Shown here piece after piece: positions 3,950 to 59,500 of a stretch of 64,000 bases of DNA. Position 1 is the stretch's first letter. Each line of letters begins with the position of its first letter. This stretch comes from Akanthomyces muscarius (Eukaryota > Ascomycota > Sordariomycetes > Hypocreales > Cordycipitaceae): NCBI RefSeq assembly GCF_028009165.1, contig NC_079243.1:1736001-1800000 (forward strand), given 5' to 3'. A model generated the notes under the pieces. It was not told the origin of the DNA and did no database searches. It worked only from the letters and a program-made list of their open reading frames with translations. The position numbers and the translations under genes were made by a program.

Positions 3950-4591
3950 GATGACGAATTGCTATATGCCCGAGGATGTGCAGTTCGATCTGTTGTCTGT
4001 AGTAAAAGGACACTCGTCGAGTGCAACAGATAAAGTGTGAAAATCGGAGGAGGAAGAAGTGTGTCGGAGGCGGCCCGGGCGATTTGCCTTCGAAGATGGT
4101 GGAGACAGACCGAAGGTTGAGCTTCGTCACTACTGGTACCTGATTTAGAGCGTCAGACGAACTGGAGGTAGTTACAAGCTTATATCCAGGCAAAGGCGAG
4201 AGCAGATATGTTGATTTTCCTGCTTTCCGGTGCTATTCTAACCTCGTACCAGAAAGTGATTATATCCTTCATCCTCCTTATTTAAAAACCCTTCCCCAAA
4301 GTTTTCTTATGCAACAGCCACGACCGCCCTGTCACTGAGCTTCCTTCAGTGCTTGCTCCAGCATCATCAGTGGAGTCTCTGGGCGGTGAATGCGCCACAG
4401 CGCCGCCTGCGCGCGCCACAAGCTTCACGTGACGCATACGTCGTTTCCTCTGCTCAGCCCCACCAACAGACGTCAGGTAGTGAGCTCCAATACGTGACCC
4501 CGCCGTCGCAGCCAGCAGTAGTGACACTGGACAAAGCAACAAGGAGCAGCACCACGACGAGCGCCCAGCTGCGGCGTCCCTTAATCTGATC
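3950..4591. promoter_or_regulatory. bidirectional intergenic region Ubp6/ARPC4
   Basis: These 642 bp separate two divergently transcribed housekeeping genes, so both promoters and both 5' UTRs must lie here. No clear TATA box precedes either start, as is common for housekeeping genes. Open frames here have no domain character. Confidence 0.6.
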
Positions 4592-38360: not shown

Positions 38361-39028
38361 CGTCGCCGGGAACGTTTAAAGCCACATGGCCCCCACTAAC
38401 GCAGCTAATATATCTGCTAGTATGGGGCGAAGAACAAAGGTTGGACGTCCGAAAACAAACGCAGGACCTTTACTAACACATCACAGGCACAGTTATGACG
38501 ATGCAGCTTCTCAAAACTTCATCAGAGGATCCTGGCGCGGTTACCGGATAAATGACTTGCTGGCTTGCTTCCCCATAGCGGCGATGGGCAGGTGGTTGGT
38601 GTGAAAGTGATGGTTGGCAGTCTAGTCTCTAGCTTGTGCATAATGCCGGATTCAGATCGCTCACTTGAAAATGAGTATTAAGTAAAATCTGGGAGAACCA
38701 TATCTCTCGCAGCTCATCTATTGTTCCTGCCATTACTACCGCTCACCTGCGTGCCAGTCTTTCGCTTCCGGGAGTCCTGATACGCTAATGGCTGTGTCTC
38801 AGCATGGAGGGGGGTAGAGTTTCTAGCTACACATCACATAAGATTTAATGGACGGAACGAATGGAATGGGCGAATTAATACAATACCCGCTGTGCCTTTT
38901 CTATCACCAGCCGGCTGCTAGAAAGTGCCACACCATCATCAACATTGACAAGTCGATGGATCCTGACGAAACACCTACACACCAAAAACAACTACACACC
39001 CGCGAATACGCAGACTCGAAAATAAAAT
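38361..39028. other. intergenic, no supported gene
   Basis: Likely promoter of the adenylation-domain gene; short frames only. Confidence 0.45.
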
Positions 39029-41030
39029 ATGGTAAACGAAATGATGGCCCTTGTGGAGGGCAAAAGCACCCCAAAATCTACAACTACGTCGCTATGGGTG
39101 GCGCTGAATCAGCGCGCCGGCGTCGACCCGGACCGCCTAGCCTTGCTGTCGCCCAAGCAGCCGCCGAACCTGCTGTCGGAGCTAGTACGGCCATGGCCCG
39201 TGGGAGGCCATGAAGACGAAGGAAGAGAAATGAAGAATAGTAGCAGTGTCATTGGCGATGGCCGGGGTACAACCGCCATCCGCAAGCTCACCTCGCCGGC
39301 CTGCCTCCTCAGCTACCTGCTGTCGTGGATCCTCCCGACGCCCGCCAACTCTGGTGATGCACCGTATCTGCAGTGGTCGTTTGGCGAGCTGCAGCGTGCT
39401 TCTATCCGGCTCGGCGTCTTTCTACGGCGAAGCCGCGGCGTAGAGCCTGGCGCCACGGCAGTCCTCTTCACCACCTTGTCGGCGGAATGGACTCTGCTCC
39501 TCTCTATGTCGGCCTTGAACCGATACACTGCCGTGACCCTTCCCAACAGTGCTCTGAGACCTGGCAACCAAGTATTGCAGGACCAAATGGACGAGCTAGC
39601 GCCCTCCATCATTGTCGTTGCAACCGAGGCTGAGGCGAGACATGTGGCCGACAACTTGTCGACGAACATCGCCGTTGGCATCAGCATAGAAAAGTTCACG
39701 AATCAGGCGCCAGACGGCTGGGTCAGCATGGCAGACATTGCGGCCGAGATGGCGTCGCAGGGCTGCCACAACTACATCGACACCATGGCAGCCCTGCAAA
39801 ACGAGCCCGAGGACCACGGGCGAAACGCCTTTGTCGTCTACACCAGCGGCTCGACAGGCAAGCCCAAGGGCTGCCCGCTCTCTGTGGGCTACCTGCTCCA
39901 GGCGCTCGACTACCTCGCCACGCAGTACGTGCCGCTCCTCCCCACGCCCATCACGCTCGTCTCCGGCGTCAACAACCAGGTGCGCTGCCAGGCCATGACC
40001 GTGCTTTCATGGGCGACGGGCAACGCGGCCGTCATGGACACGTGCGAGATGGACCCCGAGTCGATCCTCGACGGGCTGCGGCGGTGCCGCCCTATATCAA
40101 TCTCTCTCTTTGTCACGGCCGTCAAGACGCTGGCGCGCGCGCCCAACTACTCCGCCGACGCCGTGCGGTCCGTCCGCGTCGTTAACCTGACCGGGCTGAC
40201 GGTGACGACGGCGGCCCTCCGCGTGGCACAGCAGACATTTCCCCGCGCGCAGATCCTGCCCTCGTACGCCATGACCGAGGCAGCCAGCGTCGTGACATGG
40301 GCGTCGTGGTACCGCCCGCCAGCAGTCGACAAGATGCCGTCATGGTGCGGCATCGCGGCTTCTGGTATGGTGGCGCCCGGCTCGGCGCTTAAGGTCGTCG
40401 GTCCGGATGGACGGCGGCCCGTGCCGCGCGGGGAGGTCGGCGCGCTGCACCTGCATGGGAAATCGGTTATCGAAAACTACCTCAACCCCAATGATATATC
40501 AGACGCATTTTACACCGGAGACGACGGCCGTCGTTGGTTCGTGTCTGGGGATGATGCTTTAATTAACGCGGAGGGCTTTCTGCACGTGCTCGGTCGGAGT
40601 GAGAACACGCTCAGGCGCGACAACAAGATCGTCGTTGCTGGTACTGTGGAGAGTTTTCTCGAGAAGGAATACCCAGGAACATCGGTAAGAACACTATTGC
40701 TCTCCACTACATCCGCAATACGTCACTCTATGAATCAGGCACTAACACTAACATATCTTCTTGAAGACTGCCGTTGTCAACATTACATCTCGCGACGGCG
40801 CTATTGGGCTGTACGCTATTTTTGATGACAAGATTCCCGCGACGTCATCTACCGAGATTGAACATTGTGTTGTCCAAAAGCTTGGTAAGGCGTACCGAAT
40901 TGAAGGTGCTGCGAGCCTCAAAGCGATTGGGTTTGAAAAATGGCCACCGACGATATCTCGCAAGATTGACTACCGTCGTTTGCGGCCTGCAATTGAGAAA
41001 TACATAACATCTGCCTCGGTGACGAAATAG
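39029..41030 (+). CDS. NRPS-like adenylation domain, N-terminal remnant of a hybrid NRPS-PKS
   Basis: Exons 39029-40684 and 40767-41030 (82-nt intron, GTAAGA donor, TTGAAG acceptor) give 639 residues. The adenylation core motifs are present in order: A3 VVYTSGSTGKPKG, A5-like PSYAMTEAA, A7 WFVSGDDALIN, A8 GRSENTLRRDNKIVVAG and A10 SRKIDYRRL. The domain activates an amino or other carboxylic acid as AMP ester and would load it on a carrier domain. The reading frame stops at 41028, about 60 codons after A10, which is where a carrier domain should be; the carrier Ser motif and a ketosynthase start follow in the same frame after further stops. It may therefore be a live stand-alone enzyme or a pseudogene. 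A-T-KS order is known from SwnK-type synthetases. Confidence 0.75.
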
Positions 41031-41123
41031 TCGCGCTCACTCTTTCAATAATACACCGTATGGCTATAGTTGGTGAGAAACATGTTGTCGCGCGGGCAGA
41101 ACAGTACACCGCAAAGAGCATAG

Positions 41124-41444
41124 TTACGTATCCGTAGATATGCCAACTCGGCAAATATTGTGGGCGGAAACTCATTGCGCATCATCCAGGTCCAGGCGCG
41201 GCTGGAGAAACTGCTGAATCGGCCAATCCCGATCGCTACGCTTTTCGAACACTACTCCGTCGAGTCGCTGGCAGCATACCTGGGCGGAAATGATGCGGTC
41301 GGCGTGGAGCAGCACGCCTTGCAGCCTCGCGCGCCTCCTGTCACCAAAGACGAGGGCATAGCCATAGTCTCCATGGCGTGCCGACTTCCTGGTGATGTAG
41401 ACACTCCTGAAAAGTTCTGGCAGCTGATGATCTCCAGAATCTAA
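41124..41444 (+). pseudogene. carrier-protein half and ketosynthase stub of the same synthetase
   Basis: In the frame of the adenylation gene, but beyond four stops, lies VGGNSLRIIQVQARLEKLL, the phosphopantetheine motif and helices 2-4 of a carrier (T) domain (PIATLFEHYSVESLAAYLGG). About 40 residues later comes DEGIAIVSMACRLPGDVDTP and EKFWQLM, the unmistakable N-terminus of a polyketide ketosynthase, after which the frame ends and no more ketosynthase is seen. The synthetase was therefore A-T-KS and was cut off within the first 30 residues of KS. The missing T helix 1 lies between 41031 and 41123. Confidence 0.8.
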
Positions 41445-42399
41445 CAAGATCGCAAAGAGAAGTATTGGGAATGCGCGGCGAGAGTGTGCGGGTTCTGGCA
41501 AGATATTGAGATGCTCGCGGATGGTCGTCCTCAGTGTCCCACACCTGCTGTTTCCGAAGTTTATGAAAGTCCTCCATTATCACAATCTAGCTCTGTAAAT
41601 AACTATATACGCTATCTACGACAACAATTTTGCTAATGGCTGAAGCAGCCCGTCACAACTACCGAATACCTCAAGCAAGCGCCGTGCAGCATGGTGGTCA
41701 TTGATCATTTGTGGTGCGGATGCTGCGAGCTCTTCTGATATAGAGTATTCGGAAAAATGCCCGATCCATGGTAATGGGGAACGGCGGCTACTCCGACGCA
41801 GTCGCTGCAAGTGCCACGACTGACAGAAGTAATCATTGAATTTTCAGGAAACAAAGCAGCCACAGTGACTATCGATCGTCTGAAAGAAATTGTAGAAAGT
41901 CGAGTGAGCCATTTATTTACTTAATTTTTGATCAAATATAACTATGGAATATTGGCTTCTAGAGATTTGCGCTCTGCCTGTGTATAGGTTGGCCTCAGGA
42001 TGGCTCTATGGCGTGATGGGAAACCGCTTGCGAGTCTGACAGCGAAAGACTACTCAAGAGCAAGAGTGTGGCCCCCGCACTTCTGCTGGTGAAGCATCTC
42101 ATTTCCGACACGATCGGCGAGGTTTAGTGAGTCCACATTATAGGGGGAACATGGCAGAGATTCTAACCAGTTAGCTACCTATCAAATTAGGCCGGAATTA
42201 GACTGGTAAGAAGAATAATTATAATAATAATAATAATAATAATTAAATTTAATTAAATTATTATTATTATTATATAGTAAGATAACTATAGTATTAAGAA
42301 TTATATAAAATAAAATAATCGCTAATATTTAAATCTATATACTCTAAAATAATAAAAAATGCAGAATTATGCCGCCTATACTTAAAGGTTGTGGTCTTC
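41445..42399. other. AT-rich deletion boundary, no gene
   Basis: After the KS stub the sequence has no PKS similarity. At about 42220-42275 a (TAA)n tract passes through the palindrome AATTAAATTTAATT into a (TTA)n tract, able to form a hairpin. The rest is AT-rich. Confidence 0.6.
42223..42273. repeat. (TAA)n/(TTA)n inverted microsatellite
   Basis: About 25 bp of TAA repeats followed by a palindromic centre and about 17 bp of TTA repeats. A likely hairpin and recombination-prone site, about 130 bp from the 3' end of the monooxygenase gene. Confidence 0.7.
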
Positions 42400-43986
42400 T
42401 TAATAGCTGAACCACTTATACAGCGAAAGTTTCAGCGCCTCCACGTCGAAGGAATCTCCCTCCGCCAACCACGCGACGATGCCATCCGGGCGTACCAGCA
42501 CCGCTCGCAGCCCTCTTGTGTCTTGGGCGGCCACGGACAGGTAGTTGACCTTCCAGGCAAACTCGGTCCCGATGACGGCGTCCTTAAGCTCAGCGCTGTC
42601 CTCAAAGTCCACCAGCCAGGCACGGCCGTTCTGCAGCTTGTCGCCCATCCTAGTGCCGTCGAGAAACTCAAAGTCGGGCACGCTAGAGCCGACCAGCTCA
42701 TGGTCAAAGACGCCGCCCTTGCCGAGGACATAGCGCTGGGCCAGCCCCCACACACGGCCAATGACGAGGTTCATGCCGTCGTCGGTATTGAGCATGTCCT
42801 GGGTGAGGTTAAGGACGGCGCGGCCAAAGAGGTCTGGCTGCAGTGACAAGACCTGCGAGCGCGTCCAATCGAGCACCCAGTCGGCCAGCGGATGGCGCTC
42901 GCTCTCATAGCTATCGATAAGCGTCGTGTCTAGGGGCGCCGATGTGCCTGGGTACGAGGCCATAAGCTCCTGGCGGACGGTGGCGGCGAGCTTCCACCCA
43001 AGGTTCATAGCGTCGCCGAGGCCGAGATTCAGGCCCTGGGCGCCTAGGGGCGAGTGGATATGCGCGGCGTCGCCGGCAAGGAGCACCCGGCCCTTGCGGA
43101 AGGTGCTCGCGCCCTTAGACCGGTCGGTAAAGGTAGAGATATAGTGTAGGGCGTGGACCGTGATCTCGCCGGGGCCTAGGACCTTATCGGCGATGCTCCG
43201 GAAGTGCTCGACCGTCACCTCCGAGTTTCGGTCAAAGGTAGCGCCGTCCCAATCAAGGAGCGCGATACAGTCGTCGGAAAAGGTCATAACCATGCCGCCG
43301 GGCGCCGGGTGGAAGCCGAGTTCCATCTCCTTCTTAGACGTGAAGTCGAGGCGCGCCATATAGCCCGTGAACATGGGGTCGGAGCCGGTCAAGTTGATGC
43401 CCGCGAGCTTCCGGATCGTGCTCCGGCCACCGTCGCAGCCGACGAGCCAGCGGCCGCGGAACGTGCTGCCCTGCTCGCCGGCCACGACAGTGACGCTGCT
43501 GTCGTCCTGGCGGAGGATGGATGTGACGGGGTGGTTGACGAGGATGGTGACGCCGTGGCTGCGGGCGCGCTTGGCGTAGATATCGGTCACCTCTTGGATG
43601 CAGCTCTTGGCCGGCCGCGTGACGGGCCCGCGCAGGCGGTACTTCCACCGGTTCAGGTCGAACTGGGACATGTTGAGCTTCAGGCCGGCGTAGTGGCCGC
43701 CGTAGGAGTAGCCCTCGCGCTTTACGCCGAACCATTGACGCTCGAGGGGCGAGACGTCGTAGTGGCTGAGCTGGGAGAGGAGGCCGCGGCGGTATAGGGA
43801 TTCGAGGGACGGAACCATAAGCGCGCGCTGGCCGATGGGGATGGCCTTCCAGTCTGACGTGAGGCTGGGATCGCGCTCGATGACGAGGACCGAAGCGCCA
43901 GCGAAACTGAGCTCGGCCGCGAGCATCATGCCCACCGGACCGGCCCCCGCGATGATGACGTCGTACAGCTTGTCTAAACCTGTCAT
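42400..43986 (-). CDS. FAD-dependent aromatic monooxygenase (PHBH/class A type)
   Basis: Single exon, 528 residues. FAD fold GAGPVG at 14-19, the Asp-Gly motif CDGGRS at 184-189 and the FAD ribityl-binding GDAAH at 305-309 (VLLAGDAAHIHSPLGAQGL) are all present, followed by a thioredoxin-like C-terminal region with NGRAWLVDFEDSAELKD and GLRAVLVRPDGIVAWL, typical of pentachlorophenol/tetracycline-type hydroxylases of secondary metabolism. It uses NAD(P)H and O2 to hydroxylate or epoxidise a (usually aromatic or polyketide) substrate, probably soluble. No introns and no lesions. A TATA element lies on the same strand at 44124-44115, about 130 bp upstream. Orientation is convergent to the synthetase remnant, consistent with a tailoring enzyme left behind in a broken cluster. 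Confidence 0.9.
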   Translation of the reverse strand: MTGLDKLYDVIIAGAGPVGMMLAAELSFAGASVLVIERDPSLTSDWKAIPIGQRALMVPSLESLYRRGLLSQLSHYDVSPLERQWFGVKREGYSYGGHYAGLKLNMSQFDLNRWKYRLRGPVTRPAKSCIQEVTDIYAKRARSHGVTILVNHPVTSILRQDDSSVTVVAGEQGSTFRGRWLVGCDGGRSTIRKLAGINLTGSDPMFTGYMARLDFTSKKEMELGFHPAPGGMVMTFSDDCIALLDWDGATFDRNSEVTVEHFRSIADKVLGPGEITVHALHYISTFTDRSKGASTFRKGRVLLAGDAAHIHSPLGAQGLNLGLGDAMNLGWKLAATVRQELMASYPGTSAPLDTTLIDSYESERHPLADWVLDWTRSQVLSLQPDLFGRAVLNLTQDMLNTDDGMNLVIGRVWGLAQRYVLGKGGVFDHELVGSSVPDFEFLDGTRMGDKLQNGRAWLVDFEDSAELKDAVIGTEFAWKVNYLSVAAQDTRGLRAVLVRPDGIVAWLAEGDSFDVEALKLSLYKWFSY

Positions 43987-45323
43987 TATGCGATGTGATT
44001 TCTCTTGTTCGATTAGGCGTAGACTGGTTTTAGATGTGTTAGACTTGGGATATGGGAAGATTTTTGATGTATTAAAATTCTTGACTGAAAAGTATTTTCT
44101 ATCCTACAGGACTGCTTATATATATGCCATTTCGATGCTGACAAGCCGAGGCTCAGAGACACTTACAGTGCCATCAGGTAATTCCGAGCGCTAATGTATG
44201 GCGATTTGGTGGCACACTGCTCGGAATTACTTGCGACCCACGGTAGACTATAGGCTGCGACGACGAACGTTTATTATTATCAACGCTTATGGAAGACTGG
44301 AATTAAATGGCAACCAGATTGTGGACAGCGGGCAGGCAGGAGGCCCGTCATCCGCTCTAAATCCCATCGAAGCGAACCTTTTTGGCTGCTTGCTTACACC
44401 CTGTCGCAGGCGGGGCGGCGCAGCGTCACATAACGAGATTTAACGACGGTTTAGGCTGATAGACCAGTGTCACGCAGGGCAGTTACTAGACATTGGATAA
44501 CGTGTGTTGATTGGAGAACTCTGTGTCTGTGCCCAGGACCACTAGGGACACCTTAAGGGGTGTCACCCACAAGAAGCTGGAAAACGCGTACTAAATGGGC
44601 TAAAGACCGCTGACTGGTCTGACCTGGTCCTCTGCTTGACAACCAGCATGACACAAATCTTAACCGACATAGGGCTAGGCAAAAGGGTCTAAGATTCAAC
44701 GAGGCTTATAACACGGGGCGAACCTCCCAGTCGTCGCGCAGCCTGAAATGCACTTTCAGGGTAAGCAAGCCTGCAAAAATGCCATACTCGTCTTCTCTTA
44801 CCTTAGTTTTTGGCCAATATACAACGGCCAGATCCGCTATTACACTAGCTACAGAGATGCCTCCAACTAAGTGTAGAGGCTAATTAATAACGTCAGGTAT
44901 GGTATGCTGATGATAGCCCGAATATTCCGAGGTAGAATGCGCCCGCTCGTATTTCGTCAGTTCATTTTATTTTCAGCATTTGTCCGAATAGCTGCTGGTA
45001 TCAACGGCTCTAGATCCCTAGTCCAAATTGTGTGCCTCAGTGCCAACCATGTCAGCACAAACGCGATTACTTCAGCTCCCAGTGGGCTCGTTAACGCTGA
45101 GCCCGCAACAAATTGGCCAGGCTTTTTGTCAGCTAGCATCCATAAGTAATTCAGGTAAACTGAGCTCAGCTGGGCAACTTTCGACATCTATAAATTTTCT
45201 TTACGTACTCAGCGAAGCTACACTGATTGAATATATAAACCTCCTCATCGCCTTTGCCTGGAACATTAATTAATTCATCAATATCACACCGAAAAAGCAG
45301 CTCTCAAAAGTATATCGCATAGA
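43987..45323. other. intergenic, possible repeat relic
   Basis: No gene. The region 44450-44750 has no stop-free frames and several short direct repeats, suggesting old transposon remains, but nothing is identifiable. TATATAAA at 45232-45239 precedes the methyltransferase start by 85 bp. Confidence 0.45.
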
Positions 45324-46559
45324 ATGGCTACTCTCACTCTCGCCCAAGCCCAGCCGGCTCCAGTCTCTAATCAGAGTGATGAGCCCAAAAACATGGAAAT
45401 CGCGCTCTCGACGGCCGCAGACTCCAAACACAACGAGCTAACCACTACCCCTGTTCATGAATATTTGTACACTATGATTGAGATTGGCGTTGTCCGCACT
45501 TTGGCAGAGCGTGGTGTCTTTAGTGCTATCCCAATTACAGGCGATATTTCCGTCCAAGAGCTGGCGGAGAAGACCAGCATCGACCTCGCACTACTTAATC
45601 GCTTCATCAAGTTTCTCATCCTCGCCAAAGTCTTGGTCAGTCAGGCAACTGGCCGCGTTGCCCACACTGCCAAGTCAGAATTCTTTTCCATACCTAGGGC
45701 AATCGACTTTTTGTCGTTGCATGTCGATTTCTTCATGGGACCTGCTACTCGCTGGCCAGATTATTTTGAAGCGAACGGCTTCAAAGAACCACAATCTGGC
45801 AAGCAGACACCTCTCGGGCTCTACCACGGCTACCCAGACAAATCGATTTACGAAGTCATGCCCCTGCTCCCTGGCAACAAGGCGTCTATATTCAATCGCG
45901 CCATGGCCAATACTTTGGATAGTATGCCCATATTGGGCTACTACGACTTCAGCTGGATCGCCAACCACGCCTGTATCGAGGCTGACCCTAAGCGCACGTT
46001 GTTAGTGGACGTCGGCGGCGGCAAAGGTCAGGCTATCAAAGCTATACTGGAGGAGAACCCCACAATTCCTTATGGGCGATGCGTTTTGCAGGATCAGGCT
46101 TTCATGATTAACGAGGCCATTGCCGAGAATGATGTGGTCGTGAGGCAAACCGCAAAGGTGATTTCAAGTTTCTTCGAACCACAACTCGTTAAAGGTATGC
46201 TCCTCTCATTATTTCTCCATTTATATTATTTAGGAAGTAATTAATTGTTTTTAGGTGCGCTGGTCTACCACATTCGCAGAGTCCTCAATGACTGGTCCGA
46301 CAAAGAGGCCATAGAGATTCTACAGCACGTCCGCGATGCTTGTGTTGCCGACTCGGTCGTTCTGGTCTCGGAACAGATTCTTCCGGATGAACCGTCGTTA
46401 GATCTAGCCGCCATGGATGTTTTTATCATAAACTACGGTGGAAAACGCAGAACGCGGGCCATGTTCGAGGAGCTGGCCGGCGCCGCAGGTCTCAAGGTAG
46501 CAAGCGTCTCAGTGGACAAGGCTACTGGACAGGCCATGATTGAGATGGTTCCCACGTGA
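45324..46559 (+). CDS. fungal O-methyltransferase (COMT-like family 2)
   Basis: Exons 45324-46194 and 46255-46559 (60-nt intron, GTATGC donor, TTTTAG acceptor, split Gly codon) give 391 residues. A winged-helix dimerisation half (EYLYTMIEIGVVRTLAERGV, DISVQELAEKTSIDLALLNR) precedes the SAM-binding LLVDVGGGKGQ at 226-236 and the FFEPQLVKGALVYHIRRV region. Where many family members have HDW, with the His acting as base, this protein reads LNDWSDKEA, so that residue is Asn. The C-terminus is regular (AAMDVFIINYGGKRRT, AMIEMVP). It transfers methyl from SAM to hydroxyl groups of phenolic or polyketide metabolites. Neighbouring monooxygenase and synthetase remnant fit a former cluster. Confidence 0.88.
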
Positions 46560-49326
46560 GGCAGCATTTAGGATGCTGTCATCCTCATTATCTGTTTATT
46601 GTGTATGAAATTACTTTATTTTGTTAGCCTCTTAGGGATCCCATAGAATATCTATTTCACCTCATAAACTTTTGTCAAATGTTTGGTTGTCATGATATGA
46701 CCTCTTAACCCTGGATATGCGTTCAAGTTGTCCATCGTAACCATGAGAAAGCGTCATCAAACTATTTGCTATCACGAGCAGCTATTTTCAACAGAGATAC
46801 ACCAAAGTACCTCAATTGAAACGTCACCCAGTGCTAGTAACGGTATCTTCATGTCTCTAAGAACTCTTCCCTTGTTTGTTTTTCAATACAGAGATTCTTT
46901 ATAGGCCAACTACTTTCGTCATGGAGCAGACGGCGAGTGTGACTGTACCAAAACCGTGCAATACGCGAGCTTGCGACCATGCTCAGTCCCACGTCAGAAA
47001 TCATCTAAGGAGCATTCATAGTGTACAGAGCACGCAAGCCATTGAAGGGGAGAGCGACCAGCTGAAAGCCTCAACCACGTCGCAGCCTCTACCAACAGCT
47101 GCTGGCCTACATTTTTAGCATTAGATTCCCAGTGTCTTTTTTTTCTTAGGAGCATTCTCTACCTAATTTAGAGCGTAGGAACATTCGAGCCTCAGAGCAG
47201 AGCCTCGGAATACTCTGGATGGATTTTTTTCTTTTATCAATACCAAGGGGGTTCAGTTTTAATGCTCTGACGCTGTAACGCGTACGAGACAGCTGTCTAT
47301 TAGTGGCAGAGCAACGGCTCTTATGCAGGGTCTTGTACGAGACTAAAGCGGGCGTCCAGCCTAACGCCGAGTTTGTTGTTCTCGTATCGCACAAAGCTTT
47401 TAATTACAGCTGTCCCTAAATTTGTATATAGCGCAGTTGTTGTAAGCGATGTGCTGAACCTTTGGCGGGGTTGACGAGCCAATGTGTCACAAGCCTGGCC
47501 ATCCTTCGAGGCCGCCTAACTAGACATGACCTTGTTCCTCAGCGGCCGAGAGCCTTCAAAACCGCCCTTTATTTTCCATCCAGTCCGAGCGAATCATCCC
47601 GCTATCTGACTCGAGACTACTATAAGAGTAATAGTTCCATAGGCGATTTGCTACCCAGAGCTCACTGCGTTTCCGTCTGACCCAAATTCGTGTTGTGGAT
47701 GCTTCTACTGCGGAGCATAGCGGAACACAACGCACCAGTCGGTCGGCGACTACAGGAAAGGGCGAGACGATTGTCACACTTTTGGATAAACAAGGATCGT
47801 AGCGTGGACGCTGAGTTTCCACAATTCAAAGGACTGGATGAGCATTTCGCCACGGCCACACAAAGGCGGCGAAGGACATTCGCTTTTATTGCAACTGCAG
47901 GCCTGGGGAAACCGAGTTATCGTCTGCACTGTTTTTTTACTCAGCCGCTGAAACTTCCTCGACAGCCGAAAACATGGCCTAATGAACTGCTTCATCGTCC
48001 ATGTCACCGAAGCTGGTGGCAGAGTTCATATGTTTGCCGAAAATGGCCGGGCTTGGTTGGGCCATGTCAGCGCATGCTGATCTCTGCTCTATGCCGCAGC
48101 GACGCCAGGCCATGGATTCTATGACATTTTTTAATGAGGTTCTCGGCGTCTTCGAGTCTCTTATTGCAGTGCCACAACTGCAGCCGACCCGCATCGCGCC
48201 AAATGCTCATTCTACGACGACAGGCAATTGCCGTGTACAGTCGGCAGCCCAGCAAATATGCGTGGGCCGTGGCAGCAACATGGCAGGGGAAAATAAACGA
48301 TGTCGTCATGTCGTCGACGGAAATGCTGTCGACTGTGTGCTGAGGAAGCCCGAGTATGCTTAAAGGCAGTCCATCGGCCGAAGCAGGCGGGCTCGGATAC
48401 TTATTGCTACCCACCATAAGCGAAATGTTCTTGGCAGTAGATCCTGGCCTCTTATAGGCAGCGCCCGACCAAAACCAACTACTACAAGGTGGATGAAGAA
48501 TTTAGAGTTAGAATAGTGCTTGATTTTTAGCCGAGCATGCGCATGTTCTTCACTGTGGCGTTTCCTGGCGGCACGTCTTGTCCCGCTCTTGAGGAAGCTG
48601 ATCAGCATCACGAAAGGAGGGTTGCGGTGACATCATGTCTAAAAATACCACCTGGTTTCCGGGGGATCCAAGCTTATACCCAGAGGCGCCTTGCTACTTT
48701 AAATGCAGGTACAGTATAGCGCGCCCTACAGCAACTCGATGCATGGAATAACCTACACAAGGACACAGCATTACGAATTGCGTCTAGAGCTGTACTAGGG
48801 GCCAAATGTGCTAATTTTCATGACTCGTTCTTGACCATACGCATACGTCCGAGTCGGAGAAAGCCACCTTGAGTCATGTTCAACAGTATGCTAGAATTAG
48901 TATTATAGTATAAACACGTTTGCTTGAGCCTGGCTCTACCCCGCACTACCAAGACAATTGCAGAAAACAAGCGGCGCAGATCAGCGCGATCGCTGTGACT
49001 ACTCTGTCGTTGCTGAGTGGCTGCTGAGTGGTGGCTGTGAGCTATTCCAGGATCTAGTCTGCCTTAATCTCCATCGATCGATCCGCAGGCAGACTACAAA
49101 GGAATTTGACTCGGAAACTTGTTTGGAATGATGTCACAGCAATTAGAAACCGTTCTTCACTGCGGCCAAGGGGATCATTCGAGCAATACTAGGTCTTGCG
49201 CTGTCTATAAAAAGCAGAAGGTTTGCCCAAACAAAGCATCTATCGAAAACACTCATCTCAATCCTTCAGCTTATCTACACACCCATACATTCTTACACCA
49301 AGTTGCCAAAACCACCAGCTTTAAAA
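46560..49326. other. 2.8 kb region of degenerate sequence
   Basis: No intact gene. Two stretches look like coding remains: minus strand 48067-48417 (with RLEDAENLIKKCHRIHGL, reminiscent of the C-terminus of fungal Zn2Cys6 regulators, not certain) and plus strand about 48720-48870 (ALQQLDAWNNLHKDTALRIA). Both lack neighbours that would make a gene. Confidence 0.4.
49206..49213 (+). promoter_or_regulatory. TATA box of the secreted 8-Cys protein gene
   Basis: TATAAAAA about 120 bp before the ATG at 49327, followed by an A/C-rich leader ending CAGCTTTAAAA before the start. Confidence 0.6.
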
Positions 49327-49887
49327 ATGAAGCTTCTTGCACTTACCTCTGGCATCCTCGCACTAGCCTCTGGCACCGAGGCATGCATTCGTGTCCACGC
49401 ATACCTGCACAACGATCCCGTCGTTGGAGACGGCATGAAGATTCAAATTTACGAGGGCCACCGCCGCATCTGCAACACGGGCGCGCACAAGTACCTGGCG
49501 AGCGACCAGACCAAGTGGAACGTCAAGTGCGAAGGCGACAACTTTGAGGTCGAGCTCACCGACGACGGGAAGAAGGGAACCGTCCGGAAGCACAGCATCG
49601 ACTACAAGACCGACCTGGACGCCAAGGAGACCAAGCACAAGGTCGAATGCACCTACAAGACAGGCCAGAACGAACGCTGCGCAGGCTACACCTCGTGGAC
49701 GGAAACGACGCTGGTGGACAAGGGCGGCGACTGTGACGAAGAGTTTAGCATGAAAAACTGCGGTTCGCCCGAGTGTGACCTCACGGAAAAGGACAAGACG
49801 CCCGCGAAACCAGTCAAACCCAAGCAAGGCTTGAAGGAGCCCAAGCAAGGCACGCCAAAGGGTGAGCGCCGCCACCGTAGATTTTAA
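49327..49887 (+). CDS. secreted 8-cysteine protein with basic KPKQG tail (effector-like)
   Basis: Single exon, 186 residues. Signal peptide about 1-18 (MKLLALTSGILALASGTEA). The mature protein has 8 cysteines (20, 49, 68, 108, 118, 136, 145, 150), an even number suggesting four disulfides, and alternates beta-like strands (MKIQIYEG, FEVELTDDG, HKVECTYK). From about 155 the protein changes to a Lys/Pro-rich tail with two imperfect KPKQG repeats and ends GERRHRRF. I do not recognise the family. Size, cysteines and secretion fit fungal effectors, adhesins or antimicrobial proteins. The tail may be cleaved or bind polyanions (inference). Confidence 0.82.
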   Translation: MKLLALTSGILALASGTEACIRVHAYLHNDPVVGDGMKIQIYEGHRRICNTGAHKYLASDQTKWNVKCEGDNFEVELTDDGKKGTVRKHSIDYKTDLDAKETKHKVECTYKTGQNERCAGYTSWTETTLVDKGGDCDEEFSMKNCGSPECDLTEKDKTPAKPVKPKQGLKEPKQGTPKGERRHRRF

Positions 49888-50884
49888 ATCTCAGGGCTAC
49901 AGTGGAGGAAGCAACGCCCGGTAGTTATCGGGTTGACAATCCTGTGGTACAAGTCGGAAGCGAGGATATAGACCGAGTACCGTGTAACGATATCTAGCCT
50001 CATACAGTTAGATAATCAACGAAGTACTATTTAAGCAAGAAAAGATTGTCGCCAATGACTGAATTAATAGTAATGCAATATAATAACTGTAAACAGAGTT
50101 AGGGAAGCTTGTTGTTACTTTCCCTCAAAAAACTTATACCCAATGACCTAGGCTTAGTATCAAGTACGTTGTTCAAATCTGATGTGGTGCATGTCGCCGC
50201 CTGACCCTGACGCCAGAATGAGGCGACACCGGATAATTTTCCGATGTAAGTTGGCATTAACGGAGCAGAAGCGTCTATGCCTTTGATGCCGGCTACTCCT
50301 TTGCGTTGTGCGCCAGGGCTATACCAAAAGTATCTTATTCGAAGACGGCCAAAGCGATGTCGCGCTTTGACCTGGTATTGCCTGTCATTGCCAGGCACCA
50401 GCTGCCAACCCACTTGCACTGACACACACCAACGCGTTTTTTCCTCTCAATGTCTAGAAACGCTGAATTAAAAGAGGAAATGGCACCAGCCGTACACGTT
50501 TGCTGTCAATTCCTAAATAAAGCGCTCACACTCAAGAGTATGGACAAACATCTAGGCAAAGAAGCGTGCAGATAATAAGAGCAATTGCCATTGCTCTCGT
50601 TAAAAAGCCGCGCACGGATGGAAAACAAGCCATAGCGACATACACACATACATAGAACGAAGATTGCGCTCGGACTAGTTTGTTTCTTGTCCGAAAAGGG
50701 TTTAATGTACCACCAAAGGGGGCATGGAAGTTCCAGATGCTTGCTATCCTAAACGAAGCTCATTCGCCTGCCCGTATTGTATATGAACCACTGGACTGCC
50801 AGTTGCCCCTGCCGCCTGAAATATGCCCTGGCAATACATGTTTTACCATCTGAGATCTTGATAATCCAGAGCGAGGCAGCGAAG
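49888..50884. other. intergenic, no supported gene
   Basis: Short frames only; the last 120 bp lead to the lipase start. Confidence 0.5.
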
Positions 50885-51751
50885 ATGATTGCTCCTGCCG
50901 TCGCCATCGCCCTGCTCGTTTCACTCTTGGCCAGCGTCAGCCAAGCGTGGCCCGCGCAGCCAAGAACGGGAGCAGCGCTTCAACGGCGCATCATCGTCGG
51001 AAACGACTTTGGCTGCCGCTCCAAGTTCAGACCTGTTGTTGTCCTCCACGGCCTCTTCGCCACCCGCGAGACCGACCTCAACCTCCTCGAGACCTGGCTC
51101 CGCCTCCAGGGCTACTGCACCTTTGGGCTCACCTACGGCGCGCCGCCGCTCCTCATCAGCGTCGGCGGCGTCGCGGCGATTGACGACTCGGCGGCGCAGA
51201 TCCGCAACTCCATCAACGAGGTCCTCACCAAGACGGGCGCGAGCAAGGTCGACATCGTCGGCCACTCCGAGGGCGGCTTCCAGGCGCTCTACGTGGCCAA
51301 GCGGGAGGGGCTCAGCGCCCGCATCGGCAGGATTGTCGCGCTGGCGCCGCCGACCAGCGGCGCCGCGTACCCCAACCTCGTCGGGCTGGGCGACCTGCTC
51401 CGTCCCGCGGTCAGCGTGCAGATCCTCACGGGCGGCTGCCTGGGCTGCGTCGGCCTGCTGCCGGGCAGCACCGAGGTGGCCAGCCTCCACGACGGCCCGG
51501 TGACGCAGCCGGGCAACGACGTGACGGTCATCGCGACCAGATACGACAAGGTGGTCACGCCGCCGGGCACGGCGTCGTTTATCCACGAAAGTGGCGTGTA
51601 CAATGTGTTTGTGCAGGACGTGTGCTCGGCTGATCTTACCACCCACAACGGCATGGCCCTGGATCCAAACGTGTGGAACTTGATACACAACGCACTGACG
51701 GGCGACAACGGCCGCGAGTTTACTTGCGTCCCCTACATCAGCCCAGTATAG
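50885..51751 (+). CDS. secreted lipase/esterase (alpha/beta hydrolase, class 2 lipase-like)
   Basis: Single exon, 288 residues from the ATG at 50885, which begins a proper signal peptide (IAPAVAIALLVSLLASVSQA); the in-frame Met further upstream would put 36 polar residues before it. The alpha/beta-hydrolase fold shows the oxyanion motif VVVLHGLFA, the nucleophile elbow GHSEG (Ser128), acid Asp221 (TRYDKVVTPP) and His254 (LTTHNGMA), in the right order and spacing. Cysteines 44, 78, 185, 188, 247 and 281 suggest disulfides. It hydrolyses ester bonds of acylglycerols or related lipids outside the cell. It is high-GC with strong C/G third-position bias, so core-genome-like or recently acquired. 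Confidence 0.9.
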   Translation: MIAPAVAIALLVSLLASVSQAWPAQPRTGAALQRRIIVGNDFGCRSKFRPVVVLHGLFATRETDLNLLETWLRLQGYCTFGLTYGAPPLLISVGGVAAIDDSAAQIRNSINEVLTKTGASKVDIVGHSEGGFQALYVAKREGLSARIGRIVALAPPTSGAAYPNLVGLGDLLRPAVSVQILTGGCLGCVGLLPGSTEVASLHDGPVTQPGNDVTVIATRYDKVVTPPGTASFIHESGVYNVFVQDVCSADLTTHNGMALDPNVWNLIHNALTGDNGREFTCVPYISPV

Positions 51752-52557
51752 CAGAAGTTATATTGTCATGACTCAGATGAGGAAACGAGAATTAAACTGT
51801 TCAAAACTTGTAGTAAATAACAATAATAATCATTATAATCATAGTTTGAATAATTTGTGAATTGCGAAACGGCTGATAAGAACCAGTTGGCTGATAAAAT
51901 ATCCGTGCACCACACCATGACCCAGTACATACCGAGTGGAGGCCAGGCTTTGCGCACCAGCATCAACCGACAGCTCTTTGATCTTGAACGTTGTGGAGAA
52001 AGTGTGCATCTCACTGTCACTCACTGCCTGGCGAGGCAATTGCCCTCCAATAGGATGGCTAGTTTTACTAGCTTCAACTGGCATTCCTCTTCTCGAAAGC
52101 GGCCCCCCCTCCCCCGCCTGTCAGTACCGCCTTGACCCTCGGGTAGCCCAAATGTCAAAAGCCCAGACGACGGTTATAGTAATATCGAAACCAGCTAGCA
52201 GCCCGGATTGCCTCCTCGGCAGAGCTATCACAAGGTCAATGCGGCGACACTTATGTAGCGGCAGGTCCCATCATGCAAGTCCAGAGTCACAATTTCGTTG
52301 GGCGCTGTTTGTTCCAAGTCATTAGACTTTACGGGCCAGGCGAAAAATCTTCGCGCACGAGCAATAAGTGGTGCAAGAGGAGGATGGAGATCCCTGGGGC
52401 CGCATCCATATGCGGCGCGCGCCGAGTTTAAATGATTGATGGAGAGGCCAAAGCCCATCACCCTGTAGATATCTTGTATAAGTCCCGGGGTTCATGCTCC
52501 GCATTCACAGACCCTTGTTGTTGATTACTTTGGCTGCGTCTTACTCTATCCTCAATC
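51752..52557. other. intergenic with AATase promoter
   Basis: About 800 bp. TGTATAAG at 52475-52482 is a TATA-like site 75-80 bp before the methionine at 52558. No gene otherwise. Confidence 0.5.
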
Positions 52558-54113
52558 ATGACGGTCAAGAGCGACATGACAGTTCTTCGCCCTCTGGGCG
52601 GGCTGTAAGAAACGAAAACGTCCGCAATGGAGTCCCAAGGCGGCAGGCTAACGTTGCAATCAGGGAAATGTACTTTGCAGCCCGAAATCACATTGGCATA
52701 TACCGCGCCGTGGTCGTCACGGCTCGCTACATAGGCGCGAGTCTTACGAATCCCGGCGTAGATGGGCGGTCGGTCTCGCCCCAGTTCGTCTCTTCTCTGT
52801 CCGCCGTGGTTGCTGCGCATCCGATGCTGCGGGTGGGTATCCTGGACGAATCCACGAGTCGGGCGAGCTTTGTACATGTTCGATCGATCAATATACAGGA
52901 CTACATATCTGTTGTCGAGGTAGACTGCGCAACGGAAGAGGGCTTAAACTTAGAGCTTGCACGCCTGCAGGCGTCGGCGCACGACGAACCATGGGTTGAT
53001 ATTGAATCAAGACCGCCCTGGAGGATCGTCATTGTGCGAAACAAGAGTGAAAAGTTGGGAATCTCGGAGGATGTGTTGTTTTCATTTCATCATAGCGCGG
53101 TCGATGGGAAAAGTGGCATGCTCTTCCACGAGTCGTTACTAACCGAGCTACGAGCGAGGGCAGGGTCCAAACCGCAAGACAGCCCAGAGTATATTCTTTC
53201 ATTTCCAAAGGCCCCAGAAATCCCGGAGGCGCAGGAAGACAGTGTGCCGTTTTCCTTCTCGCCCAGGTTCGTGGCCGCGTTGCTGTGGAAAGACTTGGTA
53301 CCGGCCATGTTCAAGCCTGCCCCCCAGCCGGTCTGGAGCGGAAAGGCCATCTCCTTCTCCGCACCATACATCACGCGCATTTTGCATCTGGAAATTCCCG
53401 CTGAGCACGTTGCTATACTACGACAAGCTTGCCGGGCGCACAAAACTACGCTGACCGGCCTCTTCCACTCCCTGGCATTCGCTTCGCTCGTCGCGTCTCT
53501 TCCGCCAGAGGAGGCACCGGCTTTCAGCTGCGGCACGCCCATCAGCCTGCTGAAGCATCGCCGCGACACGCAGCATGACAGGTTCTCACGGCAAGAGACG
53601 CTGCGTCTTCTGCTCAGCACCCTGGACCACGCAATCTCGCCGGCTGCCGTGTCACGAATGCAAGCGGCCCTTGGCGCCAACGACGAGAGTTTGGGGACGG
53701 AGATTTGGGGCGCGGCGGGCGACATCAGAGGACAGCTCGCTGACAGGGTCGACACGCTCCCGCGCGACGACACGGCCGCGACGGTCAAGTTTGTTCGTGA
53801 CTTTCACGCGTACTGGGCAGTGAAGGACGGCAAGCCTAGGCGGAACTCGTGGGAGTGCAGCAACATCGGCGCGTTCACAAATCCGAGCGGAAAAGGGGAC
53901 CAGCTTCATATCAGCAGAGTAATGTTTTCCAATGGTGCACCTGTGGCAGGCGCAGCGATTGGAGTCAACGTTGCGAGCGTGGAGGGAAGTGGCTTGACGA
54001 TTACGCTGTCCTGGCAGAGGGACATTGTCGAAGAGAAAGTCATGGCGAAGCTGAAGACCACGCTTGAGCAACTTTTGAAGAATTTTTTTGATACTGGACA
54101 GTGGTTGATTTAG
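52558..54113 (+). CDS. alcohol acetyltransferase-like (AATase/condensation-fold) protein
   Basis: Exons 52558-52604 and 52664-54113 (59-nt intron; donor GTAAGA, branch GGCTAACG, acceptor AATCAG, split Leu codon) give 498 residues. The spliced N-terminus MTVKSDMTVLRPLGGLEM then YFAARNHIGIYR matches the usual start of this family; reading through the intron gives a frame open from 52494 with an unlike leader. The condensation-fold active-site motif HHSAVDG is at about 158-164 (SFHHSAVDGKSGM). The C-terminus has the DFG-like structural loop replaced by NIGAFTNPSG. Members acylate alcohols, using acetyl-CoA or related thioesters, to make volatile esters or acylate metabolites. Confidence 0.82.
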
Positions 54114-55010: not shown

Positions 55011-55258
55011 ATCATTCGAAACATTGTCGCAAAAGAAATTCCCCGGAACTTTTAGTGCTTTCAATGGGGAAACGAAGTTGAATTGAGTGGCAACACCACA
55101 CTGAAGGCAGTGAAAATAGACTCGGGGTGGGAGGTTTCGCATATGACGCTCCGGCGGCAGAAAGCCTCTTGCTTCAGGGTACGAATGAATAGACCATAGT
55201 TAGTCTAGCTGTGCTTTCCAGATCGTAGAGCGACAAAAAGATCAAAAAAATCATGCCA

Positions 55259-55390
55259 CTCCCCCGGCAAGGTTTGAACTTGCGACCTTCAGATTAACAG
55301 TCTCTTTGAAGATTGTTAGTAATTGTGCTTGAGGTAGCCACTGGTGAGTGGGTAAACTTACGACGCTCTAGCCAACTGAGCTACAGGGGA
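55259..55390 (-). tRNA. tRNA-Asn(GTT) with a 58-nt spliceosomal-type intron
   Basis: Exon parts 55390-55362 and 55303-55259 join to a 74-nt tRNA: acceptor 7 bp (one G-U), TA, D arm with GCTC/GAGC, anticodon stem TCAGA/TCTGA, loop CTGTTAA with anticodon GTT at 55298-55296, variable AGGTC, T arm GCAAG/CTTGC, discriminator G. The inserted 58 nt (55361-55304) start GTAAGT, contain TACTAAC (55321-55315) and end AAAG. They sit after the second pair of the anticodon stem, not at the normal 37/38 site, and without their removal the anticodon stem cannot form. Both internal promoter boxes (D arm and T arm) are intact, and T7 (55250-55244) follows 8 nt after the tRNA, as expected of a live Pol III gene. 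Confidence 0.85.
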
Positions 55391-55983: not shown

Positions 55984-56589
55984 TCAATAGCATCCGTGAT
56001 CGTGGGGCCTATCCCAGCGAGATGGCAGCCCCTTGCCAATATCACTATACGTATCGAGGTACCGCACACATTTCTTCTCGGTAAGGTCTCTCATGTCAAA
56101 CTCGGCCTGGCCCGCGTCGACGGTGTGCCCATTGACGGAGACATAGGTGCCGTACTCTGGGTCGCCGCTCCCCTTGATCGCCCGCCACGCCTTGGTCGGC
56201 GTCGGGGCATCGCTGCCCGCGATGTCTGGCAGCTCCAGCGCCGCCGCATCCACGTCGACAACCTCGCCCGCGGCGTTGGTGTTGAGGCAGCGCACGCCGC
56301 ACGTCTTGCAGAAGAAGAAGTGAATCTCCCTGTCCTCGGTGAGGTAGTCGCCTAGGTCGGCGTACGGGTCGAGCGGGTGCAGCAGCAAAAAGTCGGCCGC
56401 CGGATCGGCGGGCTTGAGGTGGAAGAGGCCCATCTTGTGGCAGGTGGTGCAGTTGCAGCGGGAGATGCGCTGCTCCTCTTCCTTGGGCGGATTGGACTCG
56501 GTGTGCGGTGCGGGCAGCGTGAAGAAGAGCACGTAGCGGGTGGCGCCGCAGTGGCATCCGCCAACGAGCGGTACTTTTCGCGATTCCAT
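55984..56589 (-). CDS. GFA-domain (CENP-V/GFA family) protein
   Basis: Single exon, 201 residues from the ATG at 56589 (a longer frame upstream has no ATG). The GFA zinc ligands are present: GGCHCG at 11-15 (Cys12, Cys14), SRCNCTTCH at 44-51 and FFCKTCGVRC at 92-101. The family (glutathione-dependent formaldehyde-activating-type fold) binds zinc and glutathione-like thiol adducts; most fungal members are uncharacterised, so I call only the fold. A PPKEEEQ insertion follows the first ligand pair. The promoter would be to the right, where no TATA is evident. Confidence 0.88.
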   Translation of the reverse strand: MESRKVPLVGGCHCGATRYVLFFTLPAPHTESNPPKEEEQRISRCNCTTCHKMGLFHLKPADPAADFLLLHPLDPYADLGDYLTEDREIHFFFCKTCGVRCLNTNAAGEVVDVDAAALELPDIAGSDAPTPTKAWRAIKGSGDPEYGTYVSVNGHTVDAGQAEFDMRDLTEKKCVRYLDTYSDIGKGLPSRWDRPHDHGCY

Positions 56590-59500
56590 GCTAGAGGTGG
56601 TGATATGGAGGTGCAGATGAAGGCAGAGCAATTCGGGCAATTTGACGTTTATATGTTTGAGCTCTGGGATTCAGCTGCGGGGCATGCCTCAGCTCGACTA
56701 ACGACTTACTGGTAGCGCCACAGCATCGTGAACCGTCGGTGGTCGATAGACCAGCAAATTCACGGTGGCGTAGAGATAACGTGTGCACAAGCAAGGTTTC
56801 TGCAAGCCTTCCGCAGATCATCTACATAGTAGGTGGTCCTCCAGTGCTAGCATTGTTGTTTTATTGCAACGACGGTCTGCCTCTCAACGTTGTAGCGCAA
56901 ACGTAGCAGAATGTAGTGCTCGCTGTACGTCTTCCCCAGGACAAACGAGCCTGGAATGGACAGGTTCAACATCTTTGTCCGAGGCTTGCAGCCTCTCTGG
57001 TTCAAGAAGTCCATCTAGTATCGTTGCCATGTACTGCTGCGATGCAAGCTGACGCGCCGCGGTGGATCGTGGATGCTAGACCTGTTGGTAATTATGGTGA
57101 TCACCCGAAGGTGTACGGGACCCTTCCTGTCCTCGTCTGAATGACGGTCTCGGATGCAGACTCTTGTGTCTCATCCTTGATATAGCTTCTTGGGCCACTT
57201 CCTAGCTATTTCATGCGCTCCATAGATTTTCCCGGATCTTGACCTCCAGGATTGCATTCGACGCCCCGCCTGGCTTACACCGAAGAGAGCGGCGGGTCAG
57301 CAGAGAGAAAGTTCCCCGACGTTGCTCTTGGTACTGGCCTGAACACCAGAAATCCCGAATCTATGGAATCTTCTATAATTCTCCAATGCTTTCCGTTTTC
57401 TGTCATCTCATTAGATATTTTGCTCAATGATTCCTTTGCATGATATCTCGGCCTACAAGGAAATGACTCCCAGGTGGGGCCGGGTCCGGAGCCGCGACTG
57501 CCTCACAGGCCCGAATTTCCTCATACAGCGAAGGTTCTGAACATTCTTTACGGCCCCTTGAAATGGTGTAATGAATAGTACGGAAGAAACAGTCCGGGCT
57601 TGGACGGAACAGGAATTCACGGTCGACTCGTTTTTCGTGGGCTGGCATTGGTGGACGTGTGCCGGCGTAGAACACCGGGCGACTCCTCGTGGTATGAGAC
57701 TCGTCAATCAAGATACAATCTCTCATGTCGTTTTCTAAAGCTACTTTGGACTCTCATTTTCTTTGAGTCTCGAAGCTCGGGCACGGAAAGCGCTGTTCGT
57801 CGTACTTGGCAGCAACAGGTGCCGAGCACAGCAAAGCACCCGAAGAGAGGAGATGTAAAATCCCGATACAACTAGAAAACCCCGAGAAAATATGACACTA
57901 AGATACTACTGCAGTTTTCAGCATTATAAAGGCCTTTCGAACCAATTAAATAGGCCTTTTGAGCGTAGCGACTTTTCCTCCGTAGACACTATGAACGCGC
58001 GGTCGAGTACAGCTACCCTATACTCAGCCCGGAGGGTATATGTATGCGTGATGAACATCTGTATACAGCTTATGGAGACATCTATGACTAGTTTGACAAC
58101 TCCAATTTATAGAGAAGATGTCAAAGAAATTATTCGTAGGTTTGAATGCATGTTTTGCGCTGGTGCTGTGTAGGACTGCTGAATTATATCCTCAAGCGGC
58201 TGTCCTAAAAAGAACGTTCGACCACGTCGCTATCGCTCACCACCACTGAAAAGAGAAGCATAGTGAGAAACAACTCTCAAGACCCAGGCGCATTCTTTCA
58301 TTCTATTCAGATCTCTGTCTTTGTCATCACCAAGGCATACCCGTACACAAAGAAGCATTTGCCAATGATAGGGGTTGAAGGGCTTCAACAGCCATCCCAC
58401 GTTTTTACCAAAAGCCAAAGCACGTAGAGGCCAAAGAATGCCACAGTTACTTTCCATCTAGTGGCCGTTGTAGATCATTCGATTGCTTTGACATCCTTGT
58501 GACAGATGTATCTCTATCAAAATCTACCGAATGCGTGTGCACAGGCCCTGGTCGGCATCGGCAGGAGCCGAGCCAAGTATAGTTGTGACAAACGACAAAC
58601 CTTGCCGCCACAGATGCAACCCAAAGTGATTAGCAAAGTACAGACACAGCTGAAAATAGGTGTACCAAAGCTGGTCACGTTGCCACGTTCGACTTTGAGA
58701 GGGGGGAGCATTGTGCACGGTATACCCGGACTTCGCACTCCTGTCTTGCGAGTTGCGCCCCCCCGTTGAACCACTTGCGATGTCCGGGCTAAACGACAAC
58801 CCCCGGTCGATAGCTCGTAGCTTCTTGTCCGACAGAGCTGCAAAAAAAGTCAAATAAAGGAAGTCACCTCATGAGATTATACATTTACGTATTTGGACGT
58901 GACCGGTCAACTGCCGAAGGCGCATGTTTCTTTGCAGCGCAAAGCACGGGAGTCCGAAAGCAGAATGACATGACAGGGGTCGAGCATCAAGGTTTGATCT
59001 AGCATGTGTCACCCATGGCCCGAGAAGGCCAGACTGTAAGCCGTCCAGAACCTCGATCATTGTAGAACGGTCTGCCCGTTAGCCCCGAAACGATTTTGCG
59101 CAGTCTTTTTCGCAACGCACCGCACGGTTGCGCGGCGCCGTCCGAACGGGAGGCAAAAGGCCCAGAACGACACACTCCCTCGCAGCGCAAGACATTCTCC
59201 CAGAGTCCCGTCAACTCCTGCACGGGCTTCTTGCTCTCCTCATCCTGCCGGATTCAGACCATTTTCTCTGATGTTGACAGTTTTCTTTTGCCCCCATGTC
59301 CGTCACGAGGCCTCGGAGACGTTTCGTGCGCGTTTCAGATCCGGGGCGCTATTGGCTGAGAGCTTTCTTCAACGCCCTTTGTTGCTACTTGTGCTTGGCA
59401 ATCCTTTGCCTCTTATTTAAAATGGCCTATTAAAACGAGTCAAGCATTTGGAGTGTACATGAAAAGTCAGTCAGAGAAACGCGCGACCGCGTAAAGTGTT

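Follow-up and report, generated by a model that had tools for sequence, protein, structure and literature searches.

Putative U2-type spliceosomal introns in nuclear tRNA genes of the fungus Akanthomyces muscarius

Canonical introns of eukaryotic nuclear tRNA genes lie at position 37/38 and are removed by the tRNA splicing endonuclease and a ligase. They are taught as one class, apart from the spliceosome. Ectopic tRNA introns are known from archaea and from red algae of the Cyanidioschyzon type, where the endonuclease cuts at bulge-helix-bulge motifs. In some yeasts (Schizosaccharomyces, Rhodosporidium), U6 snRNA genes contain introns of the mRNA type. To our knowledge, no nuclear tRNA gene with a spliceosomal intron has been described.

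We analyzed a stretch of 64,000 nt from Akanthomyces muscarius (hereafter, the window) along with the whole genome, which comprises 36.2 Mb in 12 contigs. The window contains an interrupted tRNA-Asn(GTT) gene (Table 1). According to the original prediction, the gene carries a 58-nt insert with GTAAGT, TACTAAC and a terminal AG, and retains a run of seven T and both internal promoter boxes. The insert is indeed present after position 28; the run and the boxes are intact and were located by coordinates. It would resemble the introns of U6 snRNA genes as a spliceosomal GT-AG intron in a short non-coding RNA gene of the Pol III type. The hosts here are instead tRNA genes with internal promoters, belonging to 11 isoacceptors and interrupted at several sites. 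The genome yielded two full-length U6 genes, neither of which is interrupted. We consider it very likely that these inserts are U2-type spliceosomal introns in nuclear tRNA genes of the Pol III type, that the spliceosome removes them from Pol III transcripts, and that they form a genome-wide set.

Table 1. Features of the interrupted tRNA-Asn gene (positions are those of the window)
Feature	Positions	Strand	Length	Remarks
Interrupted tRNA-Asn(GTT) gene, whole	55259-55390	-		called tRNA-Asn(gtt) by ARAGORN with an intron allowed; locus L039
Exon 1 (acceptor 5' strand, D arm, positions 26-28)	55362-55390	-	29 nt	identical in 3/3 copies
Spliceosome-type intron, GTAAGT...TACTAAC...AAG	55304-55361	-	58 nt	site 28/29
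5' splice site GTAAGT	55356-55361	-		first 6 nt of the insert
Branch-site-like TACTAAC	55315-55321	-		branch A 12 nt from the end of the insert
3' splice site AAG	55304-55306	-		last 3 nt of the insert
Exon 2 (remaining anticodon arm, variable loop, T arm, acceptor 3' strand, discriminator G)	55259-55303	-	45 nt, including the discriminator
Anticodon GTT (Asn)	55296-55298	-
A box TAGCTCAGTTGG	55372-55383	-		intact
B box / T arm GGTCGCAAGTTCAAACC	55271-55287	-		intact
T7, similar to a Pol III terminator	55244-55250	-		8 nt past the discriminator

No tRNA in the window is reported by ARAGORN without the intron option or by Rfam at the gathering score, as is expected for an interrupted gene. In its predicted fold the unspliced RNA lacks the D arm and the anticodon arm, and its folding energy is unremarkable (z -1.51). 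A scan for bacterial-type promoters and terminators added nothing. The three signals together (the 5' hexamer, the branch motif 9-13 nt from the end, and the terminal AG) occur in 9 of 1,278,890 random 51-60-nt stretches of the window. The window has 12 intron-like signals, which is only moderately above chance (mean 2.95 and maximum 10 in 20 random sequences). Across the genome there are 120 pairs of GTAAGT and TACTAAC versus 34 for the reversed pattern, a count inflated by repeats. A dispersed A+T-rich repeat with ends of the type GTAAGTTAC...ACTAAC (G000:C3:22782, C3:662878, C3:965104, C1:111096) contributes to this inflation.

The exon search found three tRNA-Asn loci in the genome, all with an insert at the identical site. 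The other two loci, obtained by the exon-pattern search, are an inverted pair on contig 4, 0.7 kb apart. A wider pattern of TGTTAA and the B-box core matched 14 places (25 in the reversed control), three of which are tRNA-like according to ARAGORN and by eye. This pattern would miss a tRNA-Asn gene with an ordinary 37/38 intron; the exons of such a gene are expected to show up with the spliced sequence as a query. That query matched only the same three loci, each in two pieces and never contiguously. The original prediction had left two matters to be checked, namely whether other tRNA-Asn genes carry the insert and whether the window gene is an isolated pseudogene beside normal copies. All three loci are interrupted at the same site, and no contiguous or otherwise normal tRNA-Asn copy was found by these searches.

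The exons are identical in every pair of the three copies (29/29 and 44/44). The inserts are 78% identical between copies 1 and 2 (46/59), 69% between copies 2 and 3, and 60% between copies 1 and 3, with maxima of 64, 63 and 62%, respectively, for shuffled sequences. For copies 1 and 3 the identity (0.60) is thus below the shuffled maximum (0.62), and their common origin rests on the site and the signals. The similarity of the gene flanks does not exceed that of shuffled sequences, whose upper limit is just reached by the 3' flank in copies 2 and 3. The inverted pair (L042 946-1078, plus strand, and 1740-1871, minus strand) has in common the start of the 3' flank and the 3' end of the intron, hinting at a local duplication or gene conversion.

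Exact removal of GT...AG from the window gene gives the 74-nt tRNA-Asn(GTT) cloverleaf that had been predicted, with a fully paired anticodon stem. The accompanying statement that no other cut restores the tRNA was too strong. Among 169 cuts shifted by up to 6 nt on either side, 79 were called as some tRNA, and the cut shifted by 1/1 scores 116.2. For Asn the ARAGORN score favours the GT-AG cut, which holds the single top score (117.5). When ARAGORN places the intron itself, looking in the anticodon loop, the cut is shifted and leaves a stem mismatch in copy 1, the window gene (58 nt removed), and in copy 3; copy 2 is wrongly called tRNA-SeC.

In total, 19 interrupted tRNA genes were found, in 11 isoacceptors and on seven contigs: three genes each for Asn, Ser-GCT and Ser-AGA, two each for Trp and Leu-AAG, and one each for Ser-TGA, Ser-CGA, Thr-TGT, Arg-TCT, Pro-AGG and Lys-TTT. 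The spliceosomal reading of the window insert, as originally proposed, is strengthened by the sixteen genes among them that carry a similar insert at other sites. The genes were found in several ways. ARAGORN with introns allowed revealed tRNA-Thr(TGT), whose anticodon is split between TG and T by a 60-nt insert GTTAGT...TTCTAAC...AAG. A 138-nt Rfam tRNA match corresponds to one member of a tandem pair of tRNA-Trp genes (L063 1001-1138, 1257-1394). As read by eye, each has a GT-AG insert in its variable loop besides a loop intron, and TGGAA of the loop intron is able to base-pair with the anticodon side. A search pattern combining CTAAC, the B-box core and T4 gave 45 rows (29 in the reversed control) at 17 places, i.e., nine interrupted tRNA genes, six ordinary Gln or Glu genes with CTAAC in the D loop, and two others. 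The three tRNA-Ser(GCT) genes, split between GC and T, were new from this pattern. Run at a longer distance, this pattern matched 23 places in 35 rows (control 20): eight further interrupted genes (two Ser-AGA, Ser-TGA, Ser-CGA, Arg-TCT, Pro-AGG, Leu-AAG and Lys-TTT), two ordinary Glu genes, and 13 places read by eye as non-tRNA. An exon search with six of these genes as queries added a third Ser-AGA and a second Leu-AAG gene.

Thus six genes were found without the CTAAC filter (three Asn, Thr and two Trp), two by exon match, and 11 only via the filter. The branch motif is therefore partly selected in the set, while the 5' hexamer, the length and the exact distance are unselected. The pattern searches covered inserts upstream of the B box. 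With the branch variant CTGAC, 15 rows at 10 places (22 rows in the reversed control) contained no interrupted tRNA gene; one of the places is an ordinary Leu-CAA-like gene with a loop intron (by eye). The Rfam tRNA search, in which 63 of 781 candidates were scored, had one of the 19 genes among its 54 matches.

The insertion sites, numbered by eye, are 28/29 in Asn, 35/36 in Ser-GCT and Thr-TGT, 31/32 in Arg, 33/34 in Lys and 47/48 in Trp. The remaining inserts are in the D loop, after GGTT in Ser-AGA, Ser-TGA and Ser-CGA, and beside G18-G19 in Pro and Leu. Removal of the exact insert results in an ARAGORN tRNA call for all 19 genes with loop introns allowed; the anticodon of the second Trp gene, where the loop intron is still present, is ambiguous in this call. 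Unspliced and with introns disallowed, none of the first 17 genes is called. At sites in the D loop, the variable loop and the anticodon loop the GT-AG cut is not distinguished by its ARAGORN score, and some alternative cuts outscore it in the Ser D-loop, Trp, Arg and Lys genes (the shifted-cut scoring covered all genes but Pro and the last two found, Ser-AGA3 and Leu-AAG2). For Pro-AGG the border can be read from paralogs. One interrupted and two uninterrupted genes have the same tRNA exons (L096, L098, L099), which fixes the border as GT...AG, or slid by one G, i.e., within 1 nt. In the interrupted Pro-AGG gene the insert is at the end of the A box and alters its last position (by eye).

All 19 inserts start with GT and end with AG. 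The 5' hexamer is GTAAGT in eight, GTACGT in five, GTGAGT in two, and GTTAGT, GTGCGT, GTATGT and GTAAGC in one each. These sites are close to GTRAGT, as U2-type introns require. The 3' ends are CAG (14), AAG (3) and TAG (2). Every insert has a branch motif YTAAY 8-14 nt from its end (10-12 nt in the first 17). This motif is CTAAC in 17 inserts, CTAAT in one and TTAAC in one; these two variants belong to the pair of genes that only the exon match had revealed, both of which bear the signals as well. The length is 51-60 nt in 18 inserts and 107 nt in one (L096, Pro-AGG). The D-loop inserts of Ser-AGA (L003/L088/L100) and of Ser-TGA and Ser-CGA (L089/L090) are at the same site. The similarity of their bodies is marginal between the first Ser-AGA gene and Ser-TGA (33 of 1000 shuffles were as good) and not significant between the former and Ser-CGA (208 of 1000). 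A common origin of these inserts is unproven.

Other intron types were considered and rejected. A U12-type intron, with the 5' site RTATCC and the branch site TCCTTAAC, fits none of the 19 signal sets. The catalytic core of group I and group II self-splicing introns takes a few hundred nucleotides; the inserts have 51-107 nt, and the window has no Rfam match at the gathering score. The U2-type introns of fungal protein-coding genes are similar to the inserts in length, in the GTRNGT-like 5' site, in CTAAC near the end and in NAG. The difference lies in the host: the inserts interrupt tRNA genes, whose promoter boxes are internal and whose terminator is a T run. To the best of our knowledge, the type of intron is ordinary and only the class of the host gene is new.

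The inserts might also be non-canonical introns cut by the tRNA splicing endonuclease, an alternative already named with the original prediction. Odd insertion sites in tRNA are a known habit of archaeal introns, and ordinary loop introns are common in this genome: among the other fetched tRNA genes, 27 of the 45 distinct sequences in ARAGORN have a loop insert. The ectopic introns of archaea and red algae resemble the inserts in their D-arm, anticodon-arm and variable-loop sites and in the occasional presence of two introns in one gene. They differ in being defined by bulge-helix-bulge motifs, whereas the inserts carry spliceosomal signals. The 4-bp central helix of such a motif is complete at the borders of none of the first 17 inserts (0-3 pairs, with one simple placement). 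What the inserts have in common is splice signals rather than structure. No class of insertion site coincides with the canonical position 37/38. The canonical introns share with the inserts that they interrupt nuclear tRNA genes and have to be removed for function, but they are a separate class. The 24 ordinary loop introns (Thr-TGT and two mis-modelled Trp were left out) have 8-28 nt versus 51-107 nt for the inserts, and none has the three signals; the two classes differ in site, in the GT-AG ends and in the branch motif. They coexist in eight of the 19 genes: Ser-TGA, Ser-CGA, Pro, both Leu and Lys according to ARAGORN, and both Trp by eye. Arg-TCT probably has both classes as well, with about 10 extra loop bases that ARAGORN does not report as an intron. 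The endonuclease thus fits badly on account of the sites, the incomplete helix and the distinct class of length and signals. We rejected it as a highly improbable explanation.

We also weighed the possibility that the interrupted copies are dead, i.e., pseudogenes or insertion debris, and that uninterrupted genes supply the tRNAs. Besides the uninterrupted Pro-AGG genes there are two uninterrupted and two interrupted genes of Leu-AAG, the uninterrupted pair having a different acceptor stem. For the other isoacceptors queried, every gene returned by the exon searches is interrupted: Asn (3/3), Ser-GCT (3/3), Ser-AGA (3/3), Trp (2/2), Thr-TGT, Ser-TGA, Arg-TCT and Lys-TTT (1/1 each). No uninterrupted copy of these eight isoacceptors was returned by these searches, which were not exhaustive. 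The only contiguous match in the Ser-GCT, Trp and Thr exon search is Thr-CGT (93%). Ser-CGA (1/1) was seen by pattern only, since the Ser-TGA exon query did not return its locus. Such a miss, like the share of candidates scored in the Rfam search, leaves some room for the dead-copy explanation. Within the same non-exhaustive searches, all eight serine tRNA genes found are interrupted.

The pattern of conservation argues against dead copies. In 12 within-family pairs the 53-nt gene stretches beside the inserts, some of which include loop introns, are 97% identical (617/636), versus 64% (310/486) for the intron bodies; identity at the signals is 159/168, somewhat favoured by the anchoring of the alignments at both ends. 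The B box, the terminator and the splice signals are all retained. Within the scope of these searches we rejected this explanation and consider it very improbable.

We infer Pol III transcription, removal by the spliceosome and the dependence of the cell on it from the sequence. The splice signals, the insert lengths and their conservation speak for the spliceosome. Guided by the intact A and B boxes within the gene, transcription would begin shortly before exon 1 and would stop at the T run. U1 and U2 would recognise GTAAGT and TACTAAC, and ordinary two-step splicing would take the intron out. Only then could the anticodon arm form; in the other genes, the D loop, the anticodon or the variable loop would be made whole. 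Any accompanying 37/38 intron would be removed by the tRNA endonuclease.

The polymerase deserves separate consideration, because the spliceosome normally partners Pol II and might act here on Pol II transcripts, either read-through or dedicated. Some first exons are indeed very short (16 nt in Pro, 19 nt in Leu, 20 nt in the Ser D-loop genes), and an ORF on the same strand (55984-56670) lies upstream of the window gene. However, all 19 genes have at least five T within 0-20 nt past the discriminator, and the B-box core GTTCRANYC is intact in all 19. Furthermore, the 11 isoacceptors are dispersed over seven contigs, and each gene would need its own Pol II unit. We regard Pol II transcripts as an improbable substrate, although less so than the two explanations rejected above. 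The absence of TTTT from introns was too weak as a test of Pol III transcription. TTTT occurs in none of the first 17 introns, but shuffling of the same introns gives this result with P = 0.14, which is not significant. In other intron-like stretches TTTT was found in five of 12 in the window and in 10 of 47 elsewhere.

If the spliceosome does process these Pol III transcripts, the consequences for the cell would be direct. The cell has to decode Asn, Trp and Ser codons and, unless an uninterrupted copy escaped the searches, would therefore depend on the spliceosome for doing so. The tRNAs of genes with both types of intron would need both machineries. It appears likely, though less so than the spliceosomal nature of the inserts, that the spliceosome is essential for tRNA maturation on Pol III transcripts, with the tRNAs for Asn, Trp, Ser, Thr-UGU, Arg-UCU and Lys-UUU made only through it and the dual-intron genes requiring the tRNA endonuclease in addition. 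The production of basic parts of the translation apparatus thus probably depends on a machine that is not known to act on tRNA.

Essential tRNA genes with spliceosomal introns, some of them beside an ordinary tRNA intron, would break the separation between tRNA introns and the spliceosome, and would couple splicing capacity directly to decoding capacity. They would also be a natural system for studying how genes of structured RNA acquire introns and whether Pol III transcripts, short and uncapped as they are, can be handled by the spliceosome. For annotation there is a practical warning: genomes of this kind may seem to have no tRNA-Asn or tRNA-Ser.

Several other features were observed. The genome size, the 50-60-nt introns with CTAAC and an alcohol-acetyltransferase family protein in the window would fit a filamentous ascomycete; PDB matches of proteins from the window are not diagnostic in this respect, and a search for 5.8S rRNA, with 39 of 1093 candidates scored, gave no match. 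One stretch found at four places on contigs 9 and 12 (G000:C9:64348, C9:119264, C12:31184, C12:41628) is a repeated element or a segmental duplication. In the window, ORFs for an AMP-binding enzyme, an aromatic-ring FAD monooxygenase, a lipase-like protein and an alcohol-acetyltransferase-like protein are clustered at 39026-54113, possibly forming a secondary-metabolism cluster. An ORF on the minus strand at 2196-4229 encodes a deubiquitinase with a ubiquitin domain, related to Ubp6/USP14.
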